This document shows, one piece after another, positions 16,206 to 29,181 of a stretch of DNA of 47,664 bases (its first letter is position 1; each line of letters starts with the position of its first letter). The translations under genes were made by a program, and so were the position numbers. Below the pieces are notes generated by a model. It made no database searches, had not been told where the DNA came from, and worked only from the letters and a program-made list of their open reading frames with translations. Source of the DNA: Opitutaceae bacterium (lineage in GTDB: Bacteria > Verrucomicrobiota > Verrucomicrobiia > Opitutales > Opitutaceae); the NCBI GenBank assembly GCA_028280945.1, contig JANQKV010000063.1, forward strand, positions 1 through 47,664. Reading direction: 5' to 3'.

Positions 16206-17255
16206 ATGCGTTCCCTTCTGTTTCCCGCTCTGCTGTTCAGTCTGCTGGTCTCTGGTTTGACCGCGGCCGAGCCAATCAAGGTCAAGGCCGTCATCGTGGC
16301 CATGTTCGAGCGCGGAGAGGACACCGGCGACCGACCGGGAGAGTTTCAATACTGGGTCGAGCGCGAGGGTCTCACCGAGACGTATCCGTTTCCCCAGGGC
16401 TACCGCGACCTCCGGGGCAGCCCCAACGGCGAGATCCTGGGGGTGGTCACGGGCGTGGGCACGGCCAAGAGTGCGGCTACCATCATGGCGGTGGGGTTGG
16501 ATCCGCGATTTGACCTGACCGAGGCGTATTGGCTGGTGGCCGGGATAGCCGGGGCTGATCCCGACGACATGGCGCTCGGATCGGCGGCCTGGGCGGAGTG
16601 GCTGGTCGACGGTGATCTGGCGCACGAGATCGATTTTCGTGAAGTGCCTGAAGGCTGGACCACCGGTTACATTCCCCTGCGCAAGGCCCATCCCTATCAA
16701 CCGCCGGTCGATCGCAGCGAAGGACAGGCATACCGGCTGGTGCCGTCCCTGGTGGAATGGGCGTATCAACTGACCAAAGACACCGAGTTGGGCGATACCG
16801 AAGCCATGCAGAGGCGCCGGGCCCTGTATGAAGGATATCCAAATGCCCAGCGGCCGCCTTTTGTGCTCAAGGGCGACCAACTTGCCGCCATGACCTATTG
16901 GCACGGAAAACACCTCAACCAATGGGCCAACGAATGGGTGAAGTATTTTTCTGATGGCACCGGCGAATATGTGACTACAGCCATGGAGGACACCGGCACC
17001 TACGGTTCCTTGTTGTGGCTGGACCGGGCGGGCAAAGTCGATGTGGAGCGGATGCTCGTGCTGCGCACGGCGAGCAATTTTGACATGCAATGGCCGGGAG
17101 GCGACGCCGCCGAAAGTCTGAGCGGGGAAAAACTGGGTCCGGGTTACTCCGCCTATATCCCGGCCTTGGAATCGGCTCACAGGGTAGGCAGCCAGGTCCT
17201 GCACGCGCTGCTCGACGGCTGGGACGTCTACCAGCACGAACTGCCGAAGCCGTAG
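16206..17255 (+). CDS. Purine nucleoside permease-like (NUP family) secreted protein
   Basis: The 349-residue protein has a cleavable signal peptide (MRSLLFPALLFSLLVSGLTAAE). It then shows the NUP-family pattern: VKAVIVAMFERGEDTGDRPGEFQYW, GVVTGVGTAKSAATIMAVGLDPRFDL, YWLVAGIAGADPDDMALGSAAWA and, later, TTAMEDTGTYGSLLWL. The family was named after a fungal purine nucleoside permease but has the fold of nucleoside phosphorylases. A periplasmic nucleoside-binding or -cleaving role is therefore as likely as transport. It supports a nucleoside-salvage theme with the hydrolase at the window start and NupC at 8.1 kb. Confidence 0.88.
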   Translation: MRSLLFPALLFSLLVSGLTAAEPIKVKAVIVAMFERGEDTGDRPGEFQYWVEREGLTETYPFPQGYRDLRGSPNGEILGVVTGVGTAKSAATIMAVGLDPRFDLTEAYWLVAGIAGADPDDMALGSAAWAEWLVDGDLAHEIDFREVPEGWTTGYIPLRKAHPYQPPVDRSEGQAYRLVPSLVEWAYQLTKDTELGDTEAMQRRRALYEGYPNAQRPPFVLKGDQLAAMTYWHGKHLNQWANEWVKYFSDGTGEYVTTAMEDTGTYGSLLWLDRAGKVDVERMLVLRTASNFDMQWPGGDAAESLSGEKLGPGYSAYIPALESAHRVGSQVLHALLDGWDVYQHELPKP

Positions 17256-17265
17256 GTAGATTCAG

Positions 17266-17351
17266 ATCTTTCTTTTCAGTCTTTCTCCTTCTCTTGCTCG
17301 TCAGACTGGGATCCGGGGTCCTGACGAAAGATAAGGATAAGGAATAAAGAT
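17266..17351. repeat. Imperfect inverted repeat, possible hairpin
   Basis: Downstream of the NUP gene, a pyrimidine-rich left arm ending in CGTCAG (17299-17304) faces CTGACG (17321-17326) followed by purine-rich GAAAGATAAGGATAAGGAA. Arms of about 30-38 nt match imperfectly around a 16-nt loop. In organisation it resembles the hairpin at 13421-13486, but with a different sequence. It may act as a terminator-like structure for the upstream gene. Confidence 0.5.
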
Positions 17352-17412
17352 AAAGAGGGGTTGGTGCATGGTCGCTTGCCAGTGGGCGATCCCCGGCGCA
17401 CGTTAGCGGGCT

Positions 17413-18564
17413 GTGCCGTATTTTGATTACAATGCGACGACGCCGCTGAGTCTGGCCGCCCGGGATGCCTGGTTAAAGGCCCACGAGGAAGCGTGGCAGA
17501 ATCCATCGAGTCCGCACCGGGCCGGCGTGCGGGTGGGACTGCGATTGCAGGCGGCGCGGGAAAAAGTGGCTCTGGCATTGGGCTGTGCCGCGGAGCGCAT
17601 TGTTTTCACCGGCGGAGGCACGGAATCGGCCAACGGAATCATCAATCACTTGGCCCGGACCTTGTCGGCCGATGCCAAGGTTGCCGTCAACCCAACCGAG
17701 CACCCTTGTGTGCTCGCACCGCTTGGACTGCACTTTGGCGGAGACCGGGTGGTGAATCTGCCGGTCGATGCCAACGGGGTGGTCACGGTCGATGCGGTAA
17801 AGGCGGCATTAACCGAGGGCGAAGTAAAGGCGGTGTTGGTCATGGCGGCCAACAATGAGACCGGGGTGCTGCAGTCGTGGGAGGAAATTGCAAAAATCTG
17901 TCGAGCAGCGGGAGCGGCTTGCATTTGCGACGCGTCGCAGTGGCTGGGGAAATTGCCGGGAGCCGGTTTGGGCATGGCAGACTGGATGTTCTGCGCCGCG
18001 CATAAATTTGGCGGACCCAAGGGCGTGGGTTTCCTTCTCCGCCCCACCGCCGAGAACGGTTTCTCAGTGCGACCCGGTGGTGCGCAGGAGAAGGGGCAGC
18101 GTGCCGGCACGGTGGATTTTCCCGGGATTGCGGCGATGGTCGCGGCCTTGCTGGATTGTGAGCAGACCAAGGTGCTGCACGAAAGCGACCGGGTGCGCAC
18201 CCGCGAGGCGTTTGAACAGGAGATCACACGACGATTGCGGGGCGTGCGAGTTGCCGGCGCAGGGGTGGAGAGGCTCTGGAACACCGTGACCTTGATCATG
18301 CCGCACGGCGAAAATCACCGCTGGGTGGCGCGTCTGGACAAGTGTCGCATCGAAGTTTCGACCGGCTCGGCCTGTTCCAGTGGCAAGGACGCCCCGTCCC
18401 ACGTGCTGGCGGCGATGGGAGTGCCCGGCGATCAGGCGCGAAGGGTGATTCGCATCAGCGCAGGCTGGGAGACCACACGCGAAGAATGGCAGGAGTTGGC
18501 CGATGCCTTGGTGGCCATCGCCCCGGATCTCAAGCCGGCGGACAACGTCATCTCGATCGGATGA
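17413..18564 (+). CDS. Cysteine desulfurase (NifS/IscS family)
   Basis: GTG start; 383 residues. The N-terminus YFDYNATTPL is typical. The pyridoxal-phosphate enzyme's residues are present: His97 (NPTEHPCVL) over the cofactor ring, Lys198 (AAHKFGGPKG) that binds PLP, and the catalytic Cys321 in STGSACSSGKDAPSHVL. It removes sulfur from cysteine as a persulfide for iron-sulfur cluster or thio-nucleoside synthesis. The mobile loop is short and of the S-x-G-S-A-C-S-S-G type. Its stop codon overlaps the recF start (ATGA), so the two are co-translated even though they are not known to work together. No IscU or SufE gene is nearby. Confidence 0.93.
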   Translation: MPYFDYNATTPLSLAARDAWLKAHEEAWQNPSSPHRAGVRVGLRLQAAREKVALALGCAAERIVFTGGGTESANGIINHLARTLSADAKVAVNPTEHPCVLAPLGLHFGGDRVVNLPVDANGVVTVDAVKAALTEGEVKAVLVMAANNETGVLQSWEEIAKICRAAGAACICDASQWLGKLPGAGLGMADWMFCAAHKFGGPKGVGFLLRPTAENGFSVRPGGAQEKGQRAGTVDFPGIAAMVAALLDCEQTKVLHESDRVRTREAFEQEITRRLRGVRVAGAGVERLWNTVTLIMPHGENHRWVARLDKCRIEVSTGSACSSGKDAPSHVLAAMGVPGDQARRVIRISAGWETTREEWQELADALVAIAPDLKPADNVISIG

Positions 18565-19646
18565 GGATCAAGGCCATCGGCTTGCAACACTTCCGCAATG
18601 TGGCGGAGGCTCGATTGGAATTTTCCGGACGCCTGCAGTTTTTGCTGGGCGCAAACGGCCAGGGTAAAACCAACCTGTTGGAGGCGGCCGGATTTGTGAC
18701 CGCACTGCGTTCCTTCCGCACCTCCGATCAATCCAGTCTGATTCAACAAGGTCAGCGGGAGGCATTCGTGGCCTGTGATCTGGAACACGAGCGTGAGGGT
18801 GAAGCGCAGCTCAAGGTGCAGTTTAAACCAGGTGGTAAAACGGCTTGGCTGGACGGGCAACGGGTCACGCGGTTGGCCGATGTTATCGGGAAGTTTCCCA
18901 CCGTCGTATTTTCGTCGCAGGATCAACAGCTGGTGCGGGGTTCGCCGGCGGGCCGGCGGCGTTGGCTCGACATGACGTTGTCCGCCACCGACACGACCTA
19001 TCTCGCGAGCTTGCAGTCCTATCACCGGGCTCTGGCCGGGCGGAACGCATTGTTGAAACGGGAAGCAACCACGGCGGAGTTTGATGCTTTCGAAGCGGTC
19101 CTGGCCGAGCACGGCTGCGAGTTGGTGCAGCGGCGCACGCGGGCGTTGGCGGAACTGGCGGCGGTATTGACCACCCGCTATGCCGAGATCTCGGATCAGG
19201 CCGAACCGGTGGGATTCGCTTACGCTCCGCAGATGCACCTGGAGTCCGGCGCAGAACTGCAGGTCAAGCTCGCCGCCAATCGCGAGCGGGACCGGATCCT
19301 CAAATCCACGGGCAACGGTCCCCATCGGGACGACTTTGAGTTCACCCTGCACCAAAAACCGGCTAGGGAATTTGCCTCGGAAGGCCAGCAACGGGCCCTG
19401 GTATTGTCGTTGCGGTTGGCGCAGGCGGAGTGGTTCCGTGAACGCACCCAGGTCGAGCCCGTGCTCCTCGCCGACGACGTTTTGGGTGAACTGGATGCCG
19501 CCCGGCGGCAACGATTTTGGTCGGCGGTCCCCGCTGCCAGTCAAGTCATCGCGACTGGAACCGAAGAACCGGCCGGAACACCGGCAGGCTGGCAGGTGTT
19601 CGAAGTCGAGAAAGGCGCCTTTGCGGAGCGGAAGGAATCCGGGTAA
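18561..19646 (+). CDS. recF: DNA replication and repair protein RecF
   Basis: The ATG at 18561 overlaps the desulfurase stop and gives the standard beginning MRIKAIGLQHFRNVAEARLEF. The 361-residue length is normal. Walker A is GANGQGKT (residues 30-37), the ABC signature region is FASEGQQRALVLSLRLAQ, and Walker B is VLLADDVLGELD. RecF loads RecA at single-strand gaps with RecO and RecR. In many bacteria it sits beside dnaA/dnaN, which is not the case here. Its last 20 codons lie in the first junction of the PEP-CTERM array, and degenerate copies of that tail recur downstream at 21.36, 23.01, 24.76 and 26.49 kb. Confidence 0.95.
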   Translation: MRIKAIGLQHFRNVAEARLEFSGRLQFLLGANGQGKTNLLEAAGFVTALRSFRTSDQSSLIQQGQREAFVACDLEHEREGEAQLKVQFKPGGKTAWLDGQRVTRLADVIGKFPTVVFSSQDQQLVRGSPAGRRRWLDMTLSATDTTYLASLQSYHRALAGRNALLKREATTAEFDAFEAVLAEHGCELVQRRTRALAELAAVLTTRYAEISDQAEPVGFAYAPQMHLESGAELQVKLAANRERDRILKSTGNGPHRDDFEFTLHQKPAREFASEGQQRALVLSLRLAQAEWFRERTQVEPVLLADDVLGELDAARRQRFWSAVPAASQVIATGTEEPAGTPAGWQVFEVEKGAFAERKESG

Positions 19647-19860
19647 ACCTCAAGCTAGGGGGAGGTCAGTCCAGCCGGGTGCCTTCCATGGCGGGCAGGC
19701 TGGTCGCCAGCGATCATCACCACACTGGAATGGCAGAAGCAGTTGGCGGTGAACTCAGGGGTAAAACGAAAGCAGATTGCTGCGAGAGAGGAAGCAAACT
19801 GACCGTAGGGTTTACCCAGATCCTTATCCTGCCAAACCTGCCAAGATTGATTTTAAAAAC

Positions 19861-20688
19861 CTAGGATGCCCGCTTCCTGCGAGCAAATTGGAGGTAGCCC
19901 AAAGCTACAAACCCCATCATCAAGGCGTAAGCAGAGGGTTCAGGAACTGCATTGACCGTGTAAAGCCCGCTAATTTGCCCTTGAGTCAGGACATTATCAT
20001 AAACCCATACTTCATCGATGAGGCCGTCAAAACTGTTACTGCCTATGTTAAAATCATTCGGGTTGGTTGTTCCCAAAAAATCATTGTTGGCTATTCTGGT
20101 GCCAATTAGCGTGCCATTAACGTAGATAGCTTGTTGGTTGGTCGAGCTATCATAGGTCATCGTATAATGATACCAGTTTGCCGTTGCATCAAATGTGCCA
20201 ATTCCAAGTTCCGTAGCGACTTGAGTAGCAGCAATGCTCAAATCATCGGCATAAAATCCCAAGAATGGTCCACTGGCAGCGGTAGGATGATTGTTATTTC
20301 TAATTCCTATATGAAGCAATTCGTTGGCTGTCCCACCTTGGCCCGTCGTCAAGATTGACTGAGCGCCTGTTCCCAAACTATTGAGTTTGGCCCAATAGCT
20401 GATAGTAAAACTATTATTCTCCAAGGGAAGGGCATCCTCAGTGGCTCCGGCCGCTAAAGCCAAACGCTGATTAGACCCTGCTGTAAATTCCGCAGCGTTG
20501 CCAAAGGGGGTATCAGCCCCCGTGTATTGGCTGACGCTATTAGTATTGGTCAGGTTGGAGACATTACCGGAATCATCCGTAACCAAGTCTGTGTCGAATG
20601 ACCAGTGGGCCAGAAGGACCGTCTGAGAAGAGGCAATCGTGGTCATTGTGCAGGCAATGAACGTTGCCAGAATTGTTAATCGTTTCAT
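19861..20688 (-). CDS. LamG-domain PEP-CTERM protein, copy 1
   Basis: The start at 20688 is chosen because all four copies share MKRLTILATFIAC there; this is the most divergent of the four. The 275-residue protein has a signal peptide ending near ASSQ, then a LamG/concanavalin-like jelly roll (LLAHWSFDTDLVTDDSGNVSNL ... NSFTISYWAKLNSL ... ANWYHYTMTYDSSTNQQAIYVNGTLIGTR ... FDGLIDEVWVYDNVLTQGQI). It ends with a PEP-CTERM sorting tail: VPEPSAYALMM, a hydrophobic helix, and RRKRAS. It should be exported, its tail removed by an exosortase (not in this window), and the LamG domain displayed on the surface or in extracellular matrix, where such domains often bind carbohydrate. Confidence 0.9.
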   Translation of the reverse strand: MKRLTILATFIACTMTTIASSQTVLLAHWSFDTDLVTDDSGNVSNLTNTNSVSQYTGADTPFGNAAEFTAGSNQRLALAAGATEDALPLENNSFTISYWAKLNSLGTGAQSILTTGQGGTANELLHIGIRNNNHPTAASGPFLGFYADDLSIAATQVATELGIGTFDATANWYHYTMTYDSSTNQQAIYVNGTLIGTRIANNDFLGTTNPNDFNIGSNSFDGLIDEVWVYDNVLTQGQISGLYTVNAVPEPSAYALMMGFVALGYLQFARRKRAS

Positions 20689-20991
20689 ACTGAGACGAGG
20701 CTGAGCGTTTGAAATTAAATTTGATATCAATTACAGATTGCCACAAATGATGTCTTTAATACACAGATGTATAAAAATTAAAACTATCGAGTGGTGGAAT
20801 GAGTTTGTTTTTACTGATTTATGAAAGGAAGAAGGGGGATTGAAATTGACGTATAAATCTCTTGAGGTTGTCTGTCATACAACCAACTGAGCAATGGCTG
20901 AAAGGAACTCTGTAAAATCACAAAAAACACGACAGCTGGGCCAGGATAATGGAATGGAAGTTTAACTGGGATTGATGGAAAGGCTGGGCTC

Positions 20992-21070
20992 AAAAAAGTC
21001 CACGTAAATTTGCCGGAAATACCTTAATATAAAAATAATATTATCTTAATTTAAGTCGTCATACTGGTGG
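20992..21070. other. Conserved AT-rich noncoding block, unit 1
   Basis: The block begins with a run of A then GTCCACGTAAATTTGCCGG, passes through an AT-rich stretch (TTATCTTAATTTAAGT) and ends GTCATACTGG. Near-identical blocks are at 22635-22714, 24389-24467 and 26166-26244. It lies about 300 nt upstream of the gene on the gene's strand. It carries no open frame. A promoter, silencer-binding or replication role are all possible. Confidence 0.6.
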
Positions 21071-21355
21071 CCAAATTATGCCTTTGCAGAGCGCAATCTC
21101 CCATGTGAGTTGGAACTTTGCCTGCGTTTTGCTGTTCCTGTAGCTCTTGTTACTCTGGATTCACACATATCACCATTTTCCATGCACCTGGCTCCTTCGC
21201 GTTGCCTTGGGATTTGGTGTGGACGGGCCCCATCGACGTCCTCCCGTGCCAGTTTTTGGCAGGCCGGTCGAGTTCGTCTTCGTTGGGGATGTTGCCGCTG
21301 CAGTCCCCAGTGTTTCCTTTAGCAGCTCATTGTGCCCAAGGGGGGGCGCAGCAGA

Positions 21356-23012
21356 CTGGCAGGTGTTTGAGGTCGAGGAAGGCCACCTTTGCGGAGCGGA
21401 AGGAATCCGGGTGAACCTCAAGCTGAGGCGAGGGGAGGTCAGTCCAGCCGGGTGCCTTCCATGGCGGGCAGGCTGGTCGCCAGCGATCATCACCACACTG
21501 AAATGACAAAAGCAGCTGGTGGAAAACTCACGAGTTAAGCGAAAGTAGATCGCCACAAGAGAGGGAGTGAGCTGAGCGTAAGGAGTTACCCAGATCCTTA
21601 TCCTGCCAAACCTGCCAAGATTGATTTTAAAAACCTAGGATGCCCGCTTCCTGCGAGCAAATTGGAGGTAACCCAAAGCTACAAACCCCATCATCAAGGC
21701 GTAAGCAGAGGGTTCGGGGACTGCATTGGCTGTATAAAGCCCGGTAATTTGCCCTTGAGTCAGGACATTATTATAAACCCATACCTCATCGAGGAGGCCA
21801 TCAAAAGCGTTACTACCTAATACAAAAGCATCAAGGCTGGCTGATCCCGTAAAGCCAGTGGTAGCTGTTCTGGTGCCAACCAACGTGCCATTAACGTAGA
21901 TAGCTTGTTCTTTGGTTGAGCTGTCATAGGTCATCGTGTAATGATACCAGTTGTCCACGGCGTTAAATGTCCCACTTCCAAGTGCCGTATCGACGGCAGC
22001 AGTTGAGACGTTCAGATCATCGGCCCAAAATCCCAGAAATGGTCCGCCGGCAGCAGAGTGGCCAGTGTTTCTAAACCCTATATGGAGCAGTCCACCAGTT
22101 GTTCCGCCTTGGCCCATCCCAAAGATTTGCGGAGCAACGCCTCCCAAATTATTAAGTTTGGCCCAATAGCTGAGGGTAAAACTATTATTCTCCAAGGGAA
22201 GGGCGTCCTCAGTGGCCCCGGCTGCCAAAGTCAAAGTGCGACTTCCCCCACTAAAGTCAGCAGAACCAGCACCAAAAATGGTATCAGACGTGCTTCGGGT
22301 GACACTATTGTTGGTCAGGTTGGCGACATTGCCGGAATCATCCGTAACCAAGTCTGTGTCGAACGACCAGTGGGCCAGAAGGACCGTCTGAGAATAGGCA
22401 ATCGTGGTCATTGCGCAGGCGATGAACGTTGCCAGAATTGTTAACCGTTTCATACTGAGGCGAGGGAAGAGGCGAAGTAGAATGTTAAAATTGAAGTAAA
22501 ACCTACTGAAAATGGATGTCATACAACCAACCGAGCAATGGCCGAAAGGAACTCTGGAGAATCACAAACAGCACAACAGCTGGGCTAGGATAATGGAATG
22601 GAAGCTTAACTGAGACTGATGGAAAGGTTGGGACAAAAAAAGTCCACGTAAATTTGCCGGAAATGTCTTAATGTAAATATAATATTATCTTAATTTAAGT
22701 TGTCATATAGGCGGTCAAGCCAGGCGCTTTGCTAAGCGCAATCCCCGCGTGAGTTGGAACTTTGCTTGCGATATTGCCGTTCCATGGCTCTTGGTAATCT
22801 GAACTCGCGCATGTCACCATTTGTCATGCACTTGGCATGTTTGCGTTGCCTTGGGATTGGGGGTGGGCGAGCCCCCCATCACATCCTCCCGCACCAGTTT
22901 TTGACTGGTCGGTCGTAAATTGAGACGGTTCAGTCTTCGGTAGGGATGTTGCCGCTGCAGTCCCCAATGTTTCCCTCCTGCAAGCCCTTTGTGTCTGGGG
23001 AGGGGCGGCAGA
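21356..23012. repeat. Array unit 2 (junction with recF and ldhA tail relics)
   Basis: The junction 21356-21483 keeps WQVFEVEEG, as in recF, then a 1-nt insertion puts the rest out of frame. Its nucleotide sequence is close to the real recF end (GCGGAGCGGAAGGAATCCGG is identical). The antisense ldhA-like tail is identical to that of unit 1. The noncoding part 22454-23012 lacks a stretch of roughly 90 nt present upstream of genes 1, 3 and 4, so the unit is the shortest. Confidence 0.75.
21635..22453 (-). CDS. LamG-domain PEP-CTERM protein, copy 2
   Basis: This 272-residue copy starts at the shared MKRLTILATFIACAMTTIAYSQ signal peptide; an in-frame upstream ATG exists but lies in sequence not conserved as protein among the copies. 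The LamG body is intact (HWSFDTDLVTDDSGNVANL, SFTLSYWAKLNNLG, NWYHYTMTYDSSTKEQAIYVNG, DEVWVYNNVLTQGQI) and the tail AVPEPSAYALMMGFVALGYL with RRKRAS is identical to copy 1. Differences concentrate in the middle, residues about 45-60 and 95-160, which may be ligand-facing loops. Its 3' flank (TTGATTTTAAAAACCTAGG) is shared with copy 1 but not with 3 and 4, marking 1 and 2 as one subgroup at that end. Confidence 0.9.
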   Translation of the reverse strand: MKRLTILATFIACAMTTIAYSQTVLLAHWSFDTDLVTDDSGNVANLTNNSVTRSTSDTIFGAGSADFSGGSRTLTLAAGATEDALPLENNSFTLSYWAKLNNLGGVAPQIFGMGQGGTTGGLLHIGFRNTGHSAAGGPFLGFWADDLNVSTAAVDTALGSGTFNAVDNWYHYTMTYDSSTKEQAIYVNGTLVGTRTATTGFTGSASLDAFVLGSNAFDGLLDEVWVYNNVLTQGQITGLYTANAVPEPSAYALMMGFVALGYLQFARRKRAS

Positions 23013-24759
23013 CTGGCGGCAGGTGTTTGAGGTCAAGCACGGCACCTTTGTGGAGCTGGCGGTGATCCGGTTGGACCTCAAGCGAGGGCGAAGGGAGAGG
23101 TCAGTCCAGACAGGTTATCTCCTAGGCGGGTGGGCTGGTCGCCAGCGATCATCACCACACTGGAATGGCAGAAGCAGTTGGCGAAGAACTCAGGGTTAAA
23201 GCGAAAGCAGATCGCTGCAAGAGAGGGAGTGAGCTGAGCATAAGGATTACTCAGATCCTCACCCTGCCAAATCTGCCGGAGTACTAAAACCTAGGATGCT
23301 CTCTTCCTGCGAGCAAATTGGAGGTAGCCCAAAGCTACAAACCCCATCATCAAGGCGTAAGCAGAGGGTTCGGGGACTGCATTGGTCGTATAAAGCCCGG
23401 TAATTTGCCCTTGAGTCAGGACATTATTATAAACCCATACCTCATCGAGGAGGCCATCAAATCGTCTTAATTCAAAATCATCGGGGTCAGTTGTTCCTAT
23501 AAAATCATTATTACCTAGTCTGGAGCCAACCTGCTTGCCATTAATGTAGATAGCTTGTTCGGTGCTTGAGCTATCATAGGTCATCGTATAGTGATGCCAG
23601 TTATCCACGGCATCAAATGCGCCACTTCCAAGTGCCGTATCAACTTGAGTAGCTGTAATATTCAAATCATTGACAAAAAATGACAAGAATGGTGAGCGGG
23701 AACCGACTCTAATCCCCAAATGAAGCCATCGATTAGCTCCTGGTGTTGCTCCCATCGACATGAATATTACATTACTTGATAAACTATTGAGTTTGGCCCA
23801 AAAGCTGAGAGTAAAACTATTATTTGCCAAGGGAAGGGCATTCTCAGTGGCTCCAGCTGCCAAAGTCAAATCACCGTTCGTAAAGTCAGCGGAGCCAGCG
23901 CCGAAGACGGTATCAGTTGTGCTTCGAGTGACACTATTGTTGGTCAGATTGGCGACATTGCCGGAATCATCCGTAACCAAGTCTGTGTCAAATGACCAGT
24001 GGGCCAGAAGGACGGCCTGAGAATAGGCAATTGTGGTCATTGCGCAGGCGATGAACGTTGCCAGAATGGTTAACCGTTTCATACTGAGACGAGGCTAAGT
24101 GTTTAATTTAATATTAATTGCAGATTACCACAAACGATGCCTATGATGTACAGACACATAGAACTGAATTCGTCGAGTGGTGGAATGGGTCTGTTTTTAC
24201 TGAATTATGAAAGGAGGAGGGGGGATTAAAATAGAATATTAATATTGAAGTGAAACCTCCTGGGGTTACCGGTTATATAACCGGTCGAGCAATTATCTAA
24301 GGGAGCTCTGAAAAATCACAAAAACACAACAGCTAAGCTAGGGTAATTGGGTGGAAGTTTAACTGAGATTGATGAAAAGGCCGGGGGCAAAAAAGTCCAC
24401 GTAAATTTACCGGAAATATCTTAATATAAAAATAATACTATCTTAATTTAAGTTGTCATACTGGCGGTCAAGTTGTGCGCTTTGCGAAGCGCAATCTCCC
24501 GCGTGAGTTGGAACTTTGCCTGCGTTTTTGCTGTTCCGTAGCCCCTGTTACTCTGGATTCAGGTATGTCACCATTTACCGTGCATTTGGCATGTTCACGT
24601 TGCCTTGGGATTGAGGGTGGGCGGTCTCCATCGCGTCCCTCGGGCCAGTTTTTGGCAGGTCGGTTCGTAAATTGAGACGGTTCGTCTTTGGCAGGGATGT
24701 TGTCGCTGCAGTCCCAAGAGTTTCCTCCCTGCAGCCCATTGGGCCAAGGGGCTGGCAGA
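23013..24759. repeat. Array unit 3 (junction with decayed recF and ldhA tails)
   Basis: The junction starts at 23013 with CTGGCGGCAGGTGTTTGAGG (a 3-nt insertion relative to the others). The ldhA-like antisense tail has an internal stop (LATSPPA, stop, EITCLD). The noncoding part 24083-24759 includes a small perfect palindrome CCGGTTATATAACCGG at about 24268-24283, where the other units have imperfect versions. Confidence 0.75.
23291..24082 (-). CDS. LamG-domain PEP-CTERM protein, copy 3
   Basis: At 263 residues this is the shortest copy. It has the same signal peptide (MKRLTILATFIACAMTTIAYSQ), LamG strands (NSFTLSFWAKLNSL, NWHHYTMTYDSSSTEQAIYING) and sorting tail (VPEPSAYALMMGFVALGYL, RRKRAS). 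The middle differs: VIFMSMGATPGANRWLHLGIR replaces the Gly-Gln-rich stretch of copies 1 and 2, and one strand before FDGLLDEVWVY is shortened to FELRR. The frame is intact, so the copy is probably functional. Its 3' flank (GCCGGAGTACTAAAACCTAG) is shared with copy 4. It would be exported and sorted as the others. Confidence 0.9.
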   Translation of the reverse strand: MKRLTILATFIACAMTTIAYSQAVLLAHWSFDTDLVTDDSGNVANLTNNSVTRSTTDTVFGAGSADFTNGDLTLAAGATENALPLANNSFTLSFWAKLNSLSSNVIFMSMGATPGANRWLHLGIRVGSRSPFLSFFVNDLNITATQVDTALGSGAFDAVDNWHHYTMTYDSSSTEQAIYINGKQVGSRLGNNDFIGTTDPDDFELRRFDGLLDEVWVYNNVLTQGQITGLYTTNAVPEPSAYALMMGFVALGYLQFARRKRAS

Positions 24760-26487
24760 CTGGCAGGCGTTAGAGGTCGAGGGGAGGAGCACCTTGGCGA
24801 AGCGGCGGTATCCGGGTGAGCCTCTCAAGCTGGGCCAGGTGGCAAGGTTAGTCCAAACGGGTTACCTCCAAGGAGGGCGGGCTGGTCGCCAGCCGATCAT
24901 CACCGGACTGAAATGGCAAAAGCAGTTGGCGGAGAACTCAGGGTTAAAGCGAAAACAGATCGCTGCAAGAGAGGGAGTGAGCTAAGCGTAAGGATTACCC
25001 AGATCCTCACCCTGCCAAATCTGCCGGAGTACTAAAACCTAGGATGCTCTCTTCCTGCGAACAAACTGGAGGTAGCCCAAAGCTACAAACCCCATCATCA
25101 AGGCGTAGGCAGAGGGTTCGGGGACTGCATTGGTCGTGTAAAGCCCGGTAATTTGCCCTTGAGTCAGGGCATTATTATAAACCCACACTTCATCGAGAAG
25201 ACCATCAAAATTATTACCAAATACAAAAGCATCCGGGCTGGCTGAACCTGTAAAGTCACCACCAGCTGATCTGGAGTCAATTAGCGTACCATTAATGTAG
25301 ATAGCTTGTTCTTTGGTCGAACTGTCATAGGTCATCGTGTAATGATACCAGTTAGCCGTTGCATCAAATGTACCACTTCCAAGTGCCGTAGCGACGTCAG
25401 CAGTTGTAATGTTCAAATCATCGCCAAAAAATCCCAGGAATGGTCCGCCAGGATGGCCAGGATTATGAGCGTTTCTAATCCCTACATGGAGCCATTGGTT
25501 AGCTGCTGGTGTTCCCATACTCAAGATTTGCTGAGCCTGAGGACCTCCTGCTGTTCCCAAATTATTAAGTTTGGCCCAATAGCTGAGAGTAAAACTACTA
25601 TCTGCCAAGGAGAGGGCGTCCTGAGTGGCTCCAGCTGCCAAAGTCAAAGTGCGACTACCCCCGGTAAAGTCAGCAGAACCAGCACCAAAGCTGGTATCCG
25701 TCGTGCTTCGGGTGACACCACCACTGTTGCTCAGATTGGCGACATTGCCGGAATCATCCGTAACCAAGTCTGTGTCAAACGACCAGTGGGCCAGAAGGAC
25801 CGTCTGAGAATAGGCAGTCGTGGTCATTACGCAGGCGATGAACGTTGCCAGAATTGTAAACCGTTTCATATTGAAGCAAGACTGAACATTTAAACTCAAC
25901 ATCATTACAGATTGCCACAAATGATGCCTTTAATACGCAGATGTATAAAAATTAGATCTATCGAGTGGTGGAATGGACTTGTTTTTACTGATTTATGAAA
26001 GAAGGAGGGGGGGATTGAAGTTGGCGTGAAGTCTACTGGATCTGTCTGCCATACAACCAGCCGAGCAATGACCGAAGGGGACTCTGGAGAATCACAAACA
26101 ACACAACAGCTGGGTCAGGATTATGGGATGAAAGTTTAACTGAGACCGATGGAAAGGCCGGTGTCGAAAAAGTCCACGTAAATTTGCCGGAAATATCTTA
26201 ATATAAACATAATACTATTTTAATTTAAGTTGTCATACTGGCGGTCAAGTTGTGCGCTTTGCCAAGCGCAATCTCCCGCGTGAGTTGGAACTTTGCCTGC
26301 GTTTTTGCCGTGCACTTGGCATGTTCGTGTTGCCTTGGGATTAGCGGTGGGCGAGCCCCATCGCGTGCCTCGGGTCAGTTTTAGCAGGCCGGTCGTAAAT
26401 TGAGACGGTTCGTCTTTGGCAGGGATGTTGTCGCTGCAGCCCCAGTGTTTTCCTTCAGCAGCCCATTGTGCCAGGGGGGACGGCAGA
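24760..26487. repeat. Array unit 4 (junction with recF and ldhA tails)
   Basis: The junction 24760-24902 has diverged recF-like sequence (CTGGCAGGCGTTAGAGGTCG). Its antisense ldhA-like tail encodes LATSPPSLEVTRLD and a stop on the minus strand, so that frame is still open. The gene is at 25039-25869. The noncoding part 25870-26487 resembles that of units 1 and 3. Confidence 0.75.
25039..25869 (-). CDS. LamG-domain PEP-CTERM protein, copy 4
   Basis: The 276-residue copy starts MKRFTILATFIACVMTTTAYSQ, slightly diverged from the others. It keeps the LamG layout (HWSFDTDLVTDDSGNVANL, SFTLSYWAKLNNLGTAGG, NWYHYTMTYDSSTKEQAIYING, FDGLLDEVWVYNNALTQGQI) and the tail VPEPSAYALMM with VRRKRAS. Central residues about 95-125 contain QAQQILSMGTPAANQWLHVGIR, a blend of features seen separately in copies 2 and 3, as gene conversion among the copies would produce. 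The gene is intact. Its product should be handled by the same exosortase. Confidence 0.9.
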   Translation of the reverse strand: MKRFTILATFIACVMTTTAYSQTVLLAHWSFDTDLVTDDSGNVANLSNSGGVTRSTTDTSFGAGSADFTGGSRTLTLAAGATQDALSLADSSFTLSYWAKLNNLGTAGGPQAQQILSMGTPAANQWLHVGIRNAHNPGHPGGPFLGFFGDDLNITTADVATALGSGTFDATANWYHYTMTYDSSTKEQAIYINGTLIDSRSAGGDFTGSASPDAFVFGNNFDGLLDEVWVYNNALTQGQITGLYTTNAVPEPSAYALMMGFVALGYLQFVRRKRAS

Positions 26488-26615
26488 CTGGCAGGCGTTT
26501 GAGGTCGAGGGGGGCTCCTTGGCGGAGCGGCGGGGATCGGGTGAACCTTGAGCCGGGGCAAGGGGGCGACGTCAGTTCAGCCGGGTTCCCTCCAAGGCGG
26601 ACTGGCCGGTCGCCA
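26488..26615. repeat. Terminal junction of the array (contains the real ldhA 3' end)
   Basis: It begins with a recF-tail relic (CTGGCAGGCGTTTGAGGTCG at 26488) and continues directly into the genuine 3' end of ldhA, whose stop codon is at 26572-26574. Homology to the other junctions stops within the ldhA codons for LAT, at about 26615. This junction therefore marks the right edge of the array. Confidence 0.75.
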
Positions 26616-27588
26616 ACCGGCAGATGTTGGTGGCGGTGACCCGGGCTATTTCTGCCAAGGCTTCGTTGGTGAGGAAGGCCTGATGGGCGGTGATGAGCAC
26701 GTTGGGAAAGGTCAGTAGCCGGCTCAACTCGTCGTCATCCAACATGGTGTCGGAGAGGTCCTCAAAAAACACCCCTTCCTCTTCCTCGTATACGTCGAGT
26801 GCCACCCCGCCCAGTCGACCTGATTTCAGATTTTCGATCATGGCCGTGGTATCGATGAGTTTGCCCCGGCTGGTGTTGACAAGGTAGGCACCGGGCTTGA
26901 TGCGCTCGAACTGGGTGTGATCGAACAGGTGCATGGTTTCCAGGGTAAGCGGGAGGTGCAACGAGATGACATCGCTGCGTGAAACCAACTCCTCCAGAGA
27001 GACGTAGCCCACCTGGTTTCCCTCGGCCCATTCTGCGCCGGGGCAGGGGTCGTAGGCCAGCACCGTGGTGCCGAATCCGCGGAAGATCTCCGCGGCGAGG
27101 CGGCCAATTTTTCCCGTGCCGACAATGCCCACGGTTTTGCCGTGCAAGTCGAAGCCAACGAGTCCTTTCAAGGAAAAGTTCAGATCCCGCACGCGGCTGT
27201 GGGCCCGGTGAATGTGCCGGTTGAGGGTCAGCAGCAATGCCACGGCGTGCTCGGCCACGGCGTGAGGTGAGTAGGCAGGCACACGGGTGACGGTAATCCC
27301 CAGTTCGCGGGCCGCCGGAAGATCAACGTTATTGAAACCCGCGCATCGCAGGGCGAGGTGCCGAACGTCGGCCAAACGCAGTTTTTCCAGGCAGGCACGG
27401 TCGATTTGGTCGTTAACGAACACACAAGCCGCTCTCACATCACCCACCGCTTCGACGGTTTCGGAACTCAAACGGAATTCGCGAAATTGCCAATCGAGTT
27501 GGGCCGAGGTCGGGGCGGCGAGAAAGAACTCCCGATCATAGGGTTTCGTATCGAAAACAGCGACTGGAACAGGGGGAGAAGCGGTCAC
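26572..27588 (-). CDS. ldhA: D-lactate dehydrogenase (D-2-hydroxyacid dehydrogenase)
   Basis: The GTG at 27588 gives a 338-residue protein, close to E. coli LdhA in size; a longer frame upstream runs into the divergent neighbour and lacks homology. Landmarks match LdhA: AVFDTKPYDREFF at the start, the substrate Arg in HLALRCAGFNNVDL, GKTVGIVGTGKIGRLAAEIF for NAD, YLVNTSRGKLIDT, ALDVYEEEEGVFFEDLS, and catalytic His in ITAHQAFLTNEAL. It reduces pyruvate to D-lactate with NADH in fermentation. The last 15 codons lie in the array's terminal junction. It diverges from the TauE/SafE gene with about 97 nt between starts. Confidence 0.93.
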   Translation of the reverse strand: MTASPPVPVAVFDTKPYDREFFLAAPTSAQLDWQFREFRLSSETVEAVGDVRAACVFVNDQIDRACLEKLRLADVRHLALRCAGFNNVDLPAARELGITVTRVPAYSPHAVAEHAVALLLTLNRHIHRAHSRVRDLNFSLKGLVGFDLHGKTVGIVGTGKIGRLAAEIFRGFGTTVLAYDPCPGAEWAEGNQVGYVSLEELVSRSDVISLHLPLTLETMHLFDHTQFERIKPGAYLVNTSRGKLIDTTAMIENLKSGRLGGVALDVYEEEEGVFFEDLSDTMLDDDELSRLLTFPNVLITAHQAFLTNEALAEIARVTATNICRLATGQSALEGTRLN

Positions 27589-27685
27589 GAACACCACGCA
27601 ACCAGCGACGGGGGCAAAAGCAAAACAAGGAGGAGGAAAGTCCTCCGGCAGGGGCGTTTTTTGCGACCGGAGGGCAAGGGAAACG

Positions 27686-28462
27686 ATGCAGGCTTGCCTG
27701 GCCGCGGGTGCTGCCTTCCTTTCCCAGGGAATGCAGTTGGAACTCTGGCAGTGGGCCCTGGCGGTGGCGGGGGCGATGTGTATCGGGATTTCCAAGACGG
27801 GTATCGGCGGCCTGGGGCTCGTGGCCGTCACGATTTTTGCCAACATTCTGCCGGCCCGTGAGGCCAGCGGGTTTGTGTTGCCCATGCTCATTTGTGCCGA
27901 CTTGGTGGCGGTCAAGAGCTACCGGGCCCACACGCAGTGGAAGCATCTGGGGCGCTTGTTTCCCTGGACCGCCGGCGGGGTATTTATCGGCTGGCTGGCC
28001 ATGGGGCGGATCGATGACCGGCAGGCGAGTGTGCTGATCGGCGTGATTGTGCTGACGATGGTCGGACTGCACTTGTGGCGGATGCGCAAGGGCAAGGCAC
28101 ACCCGCCTGAAAGCATCGTTTTTGCGGCCTTTATTGGGATCCTGGCGGGTTTCACGACCTTGGTTGCCAATGCTGCCGGCCCGTTGATGGCCCTCTATTT
28201 GTTGGCCATGCGGTTTCCCAAGATGGAGTGGATGGGCACGGCCGCGGTGTTCTTCTTTTTGATCAATCTCTTCAAAGTGCCGTTCATGGTGCACCTGGGG
28301 CTGATCGATGGTTCGAGCATTGCCGGCAACCTTTTGATGTTCCCGGCGGTCATCGTAGGAGCGCTGTTTGGCCGCTGGCTGCTGCCCAAGATCAACCAAA
28401 AGCTCTTCGAGACGCTGGCGCTCTGGATGAGCCTTATCGCCGGCGTGAAACTCATGTTCTAA
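27686..28462 (+). CDS. TauE/SafE-family (TSUP) membrane permease
   Basis: The ATG at 27686 has a good ribosome-binding site (GGAGGGCAAGG); an alternative ATG at 27731 removes 15 residues. The 258-residue protein has seven to eight hydrophobic segments and the family's motif pair, MCIGISKTGIGGLGLVAVTIFANI near the N-terminus and the repeated half FIGILAGFTTLVANAAGPLMALYLL in the middle. The proteins of this family export or import small anions such as sulfite, sulfoacetate or other organosulfonates. No sulfur-metabolism partner is adjacent, so the substrate is open. It diverges from ldhA. Confidence 0.88.
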   Translation: MQACLAAGAAFLSQGMQLELWQWALAVAGAMCIGISKTGIGGLGLVAVTIFANILPAREASGFVLPMLICADLVAVKSYRAHTQWKHLGRLFPWTAGGVFIGWLAMGRIDDRQASVLIGVIVLTMVGLHLWRMRKGKAHPPESIVFAAFIGILAGFTTLVANAAGPLMALYLLAMRFPKMEWMGTAAVFFFLINLFKVPFMVHLGLIDGSSIAGNLLMFPAVIVGALFGRWLLPKINQKLFETLALWMSLIAGVKLMF

Positions 28463-28572
28463 CGTATTTTAGCCCACAGATGTCTCAGTTTGACGCCGAC
28501 GATTTGTGAACTTCCCGCATCAAATTAATCGGAGTGCATCTGCGGCAATCTGCGGTTCACACTTTCCCCGGA
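28463..28572. repeat. Intergenic 'CAGATG/ATCTGCGG' repeat debris
   Basis: The 110-nt gap before ruvC contains CCACAGATGTCTCAG and GTGCATCTGCGGCAATCTGCGG. These are fragments of a repeat type (CACAGAT...ATCTGCGG) common in intergenic DNA of this group, as I recall it. No gene is seen. Confidence 0.4.
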
Positions 28573-29181
28573 ATGGCACGTAAGACGGTTCGAGACATGT
28601 GGAAGGCGAAGTTGGCGGGTGAAGAGGTCGCACCTTCCCCGCATGGTCGTCGCACCAAGGCCGATGTGACAGCCCCGCTGAACCTGCAACGCGTGCCGTT
28701 TTCCGGACAGGTGCTCGGCATCGATCCTTCCCTGCGAGGAACCGGGCTGGCCGCCATCGAGTTTTCCGGGGGGCGCCAGCCGATCATGCTAAGTTGTCGC
28801 ACGGTGAAAGTGAAACCCAAGGTGCCCATGGCCGAGGCCTTGGCCGAGATCCACCGGGCCGTCACCGAAATGATCGATCGATTCCCTCTCACCCACGTGG
28901 CGCTGGAGCAGACGATCTACGTGCAGAATTTCCAGACGGCCCAGATCCTGGGTGCCGCGCGCGGGGCGGCCATCGCGGCGGTGGCTCTGCGGGAGTTGCC
29001 GATCTTCGAGTATCCTCCCCTGCGCGTGAAACAGGCGGTGGTGGGCGCGGGACGCGCCAGCAAGGAGCAGATGGCTCGGACCGTGATGGGGTTGTTGGGC
29101 CACGGAGCGACCTTGGGCCACGACGAAGCCGATGCTGCCGGCGTGGCGCTTTGCCACGCCTTCACGTGGCGCGAGGGCTAG
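28573..29181 (+). CDS. ruvC: Crossover junction endodeoxyribonuclease RuvC
   Basis: The ATG at 28573 starts a 202-residue protein, about 30-45 longer than usual because of a basic N-terminal extension (MARKTVRDMWKAKLAGEEVA...). The core begins at LGIDPSLRGTGLA. Catalytic acidic residues are Asp51 (GIDPS), Glu112 (ALEQTIYV) and Asp184/Asp187 (GHDEADAAG). RuvC resolves Holliday junctions with RuvAB; ruvA and ruvB are not in the window. The extension has no recognisable domain and could bind DNA. The gene is followed 107 nt later by tatC on the same strand. Confidence 0.92.
   Translation: MARKTVRDMWKAKLAGEEVAPSPHGRRTKADVTAPLNLQRVPFSGQVLGIDPSLRGTGLAAIEFSGGRQPIMLSCRTVKVKPKVPMAEALAEIHRAVTEMIDRFPLTHVALEQTIYVQNFQTAQILGAARGAAIAAVALRELPIFEYPPLRVKQAVVGAGRASKEQMARTVMGLLGHGATLGHDEADAAGVALCHAFTWREG

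Follow-up and report, generated by a model that had tools for sequence, protein, structure and literature searches.

We analyzed a window of 47,664 nucleotides (nt) from an Opitutaceae bacterium, which is one entire contig (JANQKV010000063.1) of a draft genome of 5.44 Mb in 75 contigs, and in which a tandem array of surface-protein genes lies between the convergent genes recF and ldhA. The recF gene (18561 to 19646, plus strand) is intact (NCBIfam TIGR00611, E 3.3e-97), with a 3′ end that is recognizable in its orthologues, and ldhA, coding for a member of the D-2-hydroxyacid dehydrogenase family (26572 to 27591, minus strand), is likewise intact (Pfam 2-Hacid_dh_C, E 2.9e-53). Between them lie four minus-strand LamG/PEP-CTERM genes at 19861 to 20688 (Pfam Laminin_G_3 E 9.6e-19, PEP-CTERM 3.2e-4), 21635 to 22453 (Laminin_G_3 E 3.6e-22), 23291 to 24082 (E 2.7e-21), and 25039 to 25869 (E 5.2e-16), arranged in tandem within units of about 1.65 to 1.78 kb that are 80 to 83% identical overall. 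The guanine-plus-cytosine (GC) content of the array is 49%, compared with 62% in recF and 59% in ldhA.

The array is bounded and divided by five junction blocks (J1 to J5, 19582 to 26615), and all five are built alike: recF 3′-end sequence (about 65 nt) comes first, then a spacer of about 20 to 35 nt, then ldhA 3′-end sequence in antisense (about 41 nt), for a total of about 130 nt. J1 (19582 to 19709) contains the real recF end, the last 65 nt of the gene (19582 to 19646) and the parent of the recF-like relics, followed by the spacer and an ldhA-like relic at 19669 to 19709; J5 (26481 to 26615) has a recF-like relic at 26481 to 26541 and the real ldhA end at 26575 to 26615, so that the block is directly duplicated at the two ends of the array. 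The internal junctions contain relics of both genes: J2 (21351 to 21482) at 21351 to 21412 and 21442 to 21482, J3 (23006 to 23144) at 23006 to 23070 and 23104 to 23144, and J4 (24754 to 24895) at 24754 to 24817 and 24851 to 24895, the recF-like relic being named first in each case. Four units and five blocks correspond to the n units and n + 1 repeats of a tandem amplification.

An earlier note on this DNA, made from the letters alone, had described the same five junctions, had assigned the first to the real recF end and the last to the real ldhA end, and had named chance matching as one finding that would overturn its reading; the observation is confirmed, and the matches are not due to chance. 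The recF-like relics of J2 to J5 have local alignment scores of 48, 29, 29, and 35 (shuffle maxima 15 to 18), and the ldhA-like relics of J1 to J4 score 27, 27, 21, and 27 (maxima 12 to 15); for none of the eight does any of 300 dinucleotide shuffles reach the observed score. The peptides quoted in that note were also correct, with the ldhA-like relic reading LATSLPAMEGTRLD-stop identically in J1 and J2 and the real gene reading LATGQSALEGTRLN-stop. J3 is imperfect, since its recF piece has one extra codon and its ldhA piece is interrupted by an in-frame stop, and the recF-like relic reads WQALEVE in J4 and WQAFEVE in J5. The residue preceding the tryptophan is aspartate in all four recF relics and glycine in the resident recF; among five recF genes compared from the same genus, four have aspartate or glutamate at this position.

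The homology detected is confined to the block of about 130 nt, and we rejected longer recF or ldhA relics. Beyond the block on the recF side no homology was detected in J2 to J5 (scores reached by 94, 109, 217, and 283 of 300 shuffles), nor was any on the ldhA side in J1 to J4 (29, 254, 159, and 157 of 300), the J1 comparison coming nearest to a signal; anchored extension past the block, made on the recF side only, halts after 3 to 5 nt. We likewise rejected the idea that the junction encodes a structured RNA or a terminator, as an Rfam scan of 17000 to 29000 gave no match at E ≤ 0.5 and the fold z-scores of four stretches are 0.34, −0.28, −0.29, and 0.75. Apart from providing homology for copy-number change, the relics in the junctions are probably functionless today.

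We also rejected the idea that the repeat supplied the ends of the two genes, because their orthologues carry recognizably the same ends. Among 33 other recF loci, three are cut short, and the tryptophan is present in 30 of the remaining 30, with WQxFxV in 20 of them; for ldhA, an xGT motif lies at the matching place in seven of 10 other loci. A DNA search of the organism's own genome finds the repeat at this locus only, and a search of 250 family genomes, in which two first-look candidates were scored per genome, matched four: the genome itself and three others with 26 to 51 nt.

In J1 to J4, a decayed stretch between the ldhA relic and the LamG stop codon resembles the C-terminal helix-turn-helix of large serine recombinases. 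All four copies are on the plus strand, at 19713 to 19793 (the weakest, 3.2 bits), 21486 to 21620 (broken), 23148 to 23234, and 24893 to 24982, and the relic amounts to about 48 codons, broken, with no catalytic part seen. A search of 287 other genomes from the phylum with the relic as query gave matches in six at E ≤ 0.001, the best at 5.3e-6. The family includes long enzymes that combine Resolvase, Recombinase, and zinc-ribbon domains as well as short orphan frames, and comparable helix-turn-helix regions also occur in ParB-like proteins; plasmid matches to the relic come from 685 records, the best 20 of them having E values of 0.6 or worse and many of these being annotated as ParB-like. No N-terminal half of this tail family could be detected across the block, where 49, 18, 14, and 33 of 60 shuffles reach the scores, and the proposal that the block interrupts a recombinase-tail gene, as in a permuted circle, is unsupported (i-E 8.9). 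The relic suggests that the LamG gene came from beside a recombinase-like gene, and indicates only that. As regards intact genes, the statement in the earlier note that there is no transposase is borne out by nine other array frames that were scanned, none of which gave a Pfam match at E ≤ 0.1, to the catalytic Resolvase domain or any other; the recombinase-like relic had been missed. There are no inverted repeats of at least 30 nt, the single threshold used, in 17000 to 29000.

To the right of ldhA lies a TauE/SafE permease gene (27686 to 28462, plus strand; Pfam PF01925, E 9.1e-30), and relatives of this organism share synteny of recF with the permease gene. We searched 150 family genomes for each of the two genes and compared 128 genomes with recF, 120 of which have both; in 94 they are on one contig and one strand less than 20 kb apart, in 23 they are on different contigs or strands, and in three they are far apart. 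The gap between them is shorter than 300 nt in 82 of the 94 syntenic genomes, including 125 nt in one member of the genus (G007), and larger in 12, among them the present genome at 8,042 nt. Within the genus, the larger gaps contain a sugar transporter in two genomes (G004 and G005), an amidohydrolase in another (G001), and a glucuronyl-esterase-like gene in a fourth (G002); a genome without a recF match, whose permease is 89% identical (G003), has about 5.8 kb of open frames upstream of it, none of which matches a gene of the window. The recF-permease interval (19646 to 27686 in this genome) is an insertion hotspot in the family, with differing genes per species where examined. The longest gaps in relatives (G020 and G013) contain no ldhA match. 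A close ldhA (at least 52% identity) is present in 10 of 37 other genomes, and in these 10 it is on a different contig from recF or megabases away, with no case of adjacency. The usual recF-permease order and the separation of ldhA from recF show that the recF/ldhA junction is itself young, and that ldhA preceded the LamG unit as a newcomer, creating the junction that was later duplicated. The gap between ldhA and the permease gene (27592 to 27685) does not match the G007 recF-permease gap, nor convincingly any of the array pieces tried, and nothing convincing came of reading it as the trace of a lost unit or of an ancestral gap of the G007 type.

The history that we regard as probable, with moderate confidence, is that the recF/ldhA block was duplicated around an inserted LamG/PEP-CTERM unit, which was then amplified to four. 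Its opening step, shown by the synteny, was the entry of ldhA into the recF-permease interval facing recF, giving the convergent junction. A LamG/PEP-CTERM gene, with its upstream region and the serine-recombinase-like stump, would then have inserted at this junction in an event that left about 130 nt of the junction in two copies; because the duplicated block contains both gene ends, recF and ldhA both stayed whole. Replication template switching could have done so, by exiting the junction, copying a donor, and re-entering upstream of the block, as could staggered-break repair, and either would take one step and no transposase. Unequal crossing-over between the flanking copies of about 130 nt, and then between whole units, would have taken the array from one unit to four, and further exchange would have turned the units into mosaics. 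The block order is alike in internal and outer junctions; a single insertion that copies the block to both sides would yield this, whereas plain insertion between the two genes with later tandem duplication would not.

Two patterns of variation bear on the amplification. J1 and J5 differ at 26 sites inside the block, and at nine of these all three internal junctions side with one outer copy: the left three (19588, 19604, and 19645) are J5-like, and the right six (19651, 19652, 19664, 19671, 19695, and 19701) are J1-like, which is the split predicted by unequal exchange between the outer blocks and one arrangement of 84, assuming independent sites. Among the units, 111 four-way informative sites are distributed 53/36/22 over the three groupings, neighboring sites agree beyond chance (3 of 5,000 permutations), and the longest run is unusually extended (14 of 5,000); the units are mosaics of each other, with later exchange among them. 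Junction order, the left/right sites, and the mosaics uphold the proposal in the earlier note that the unit came to be flanked by two copies of one recF/ldhA junction and was then amplified; its description of that junction as ancestral does not stand in any deep sense, given the short recF-permease gap in most relatives and the separation of ldhA from recF.

Several points weigh against this history. The picture is mixed at 17 of the 26 sites that distinguish J1 from J5; on the right, J3 and J4 match J5 at three sites (19681, 19684, and 19689), and on the left, J2 and J3 match J1 at three (19597, 19612, and 19622). Later exchange or independent change has thus blurred the left/right pattern. 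Moreover, coding selection acting on both real ends, and not on the relics, would partly yield the same split, and we therefore take the split as support and not as proof. The relatives examined include no genome with recF/ldhA adjacency, an empty junction, or a single unit, and the insertion and amplification steps therefore rest on one genome; the collections searched yielded no second strain of the species in which copy number could be compared. No donor locus for the LamG unit was found, hence microhomology at the breakpoints is unreadable. To our knowledge, a target duplication of about 130 nt exceeds any that is usual for bacterial transposons.

The same map would also arise by Campbell-type integration, in which a circle carrying the recF/ldhA block and the LamG unit enters by a single crossover at the chromosomal block. 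This reproduces the observed arrangement exactly and agrees with a GC content unlike that of the flanks, but the circle must already carry a junction that is known from one genome only, viral contigs have no relative of the LamG protein, and plasmids offer a single match, in one record, with 31% identity over 38% of the query; we consider such an origin unlikely. Rather more doubtful is a tandem duplication of the whole locus with its left break in recF, after which most of the first ldhA copy was deleted and the last LamG unit was lost. The recF-tail and ldhA-tail pieces would come out in the observed order and the truncated recombinase relic could be explained as a deletion edge, yet this requires one duplication plus two deletions, and six comparisons of the ldhA-permease gap with array pieces, made to look for the lost unit, yielded nothing convincing: their scores were equaled by 2, 6, 20, 58, 219, and 236 of 300 shuffles, uncorrected, of which the two lowest leave it some room.

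The relic in J1 to J4, with its likeness to a C-terminal helix-turn-helix, raises the alternative that a serine-recombinase element targeting convergent gene ends carried the LamG gene as cargo, with the relic as the remnant of its enzyme. Serine recombinases leave short cores and not 130-nt duplications, the relic is short and broken and lacks a visible catalytic part, and its family's N-terminal half is not found across the block, all of which make this origin very improbable. Finally, random tail-like matches or a misassembled array deserve hardly any credence: the genome is a 75-contig draft, but nothing was found in favor of an artifact, no shuffle reaches any of the eight match scores, and the units differ by 17 to 20%, which is excessive for collapsed or duplicated reads. 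Duplication of the block around a single inserted unit thus remains our preferred account.

All four LamG genes are open, with ratios of nonsynonymous to synonymous divergence (dN/dS) of 0.42 to 0.55 across all six pairs, and dN is 0.19 to 0.29 in the middle and 0.01 to 0.06 at the ends; by dN/dS, all four genes evolve under purifying selection; their signal and sorting regions are conserved, and their LamG middle has diverged. A C-terminal PEP-CTERM (Pfam PF07589) is found in all four (20.7 to 21.7 bits, cut-off 20.7), NCBIfam TIGR02595 falls slightly under its cut-off of 16 in both of the genes scanned (14.6 and 15.8), and the genome has six exosortase matches above the PF09721 cut-off. Most likely, the four genes supply a set of related surface lectins that are predicted to be sorted by exosortase. 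Neither their own genome outside the array nor 18 related genomes yielded a close relative of the LamG protein, the top matches having E values of 1.9e-4 (26% identity) and 1.4e-9 (31% identity), respectively.

Each unit also contains a promoter-like site, ATGAC[AG]-16-TATTAT, at a matching place about 230 to 350 nt upstream of the gene on the minus strand (21035 to 21062, 22679 to 22706, 24432 to 24459, and 26209 to 26236), which if real implies a long leader; the region has 17 such sites against 7.1 expected, and individual sites therefore weigh little. To the left of the recF-like relics is a repeated stretch of about 250 to 300 nt (about 21060 to 21350, 22704 to 23005, 24455 to 24750, and 26230 to 26478), for which no relative was identified; the Rfam scan was null, and so was a DNA comparison with phages that used the segment from 24240 to 25040 as its one query. 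A separate phage search gave one 30-amino-acid match, with an E value of 8.

The processes that this locus combines are individually known. Tandem amplifications of the form 'SRS*N + unit + SRS*N' are described in nine of 50 prokaryotes, with median repeats of 2 to 11 bp and a screen extending up to 200 bp (PMC8831618). There, head-to-tail units are joined by a short repeat that often stands at the outer ends too, and unequal exchange at the repeat is proposed, much as here; unlike those systems, the repeat here is about 130 nt and derives from the 3′ ends of the two protein-coding neighbors of the array. A study covering 80 bacterial species describes chromosomal hotspots of gene turnover, many without recognizable mobile elements (PMC5635113), and the recF-permease interval is like them in being one core-gene interval with differing content per genome. 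Our comparison differs in covering a single family, in which 12 of the 94 syntenic genomes have an enlarged interval, and in that this locus retains a decayed record of the insertion. The PEP-CTERM tail in all four genes, together with exosortases in the genome, resembles the PEP-CTERM/EpsH (exosortase) sorted proteins (PMC1569441).

The locus is a clear fossil of insertion and expansion. The array records its own origin in five copies of the junction, decayed where dispensable and preserved where needed, and it links core-interval gene turnover, an insertion accompanied by a long duplication, and the tandem multiplication of a surface-protein gene, which are usually met separately. Repeat units separated by the tails of both neighboring genes offer a practical sign by which similar insertions may be found. 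It is a long shot that these junctions reflect an insertion process that uses no transposase and writes a target duplication of about 130 nt, harmless at convergent gene ends and leaving a repeat ready for tandem exchange; if such a process were general, surface-protein genes could enter hotspots of the recF-permease type in a form that is expandable at once.

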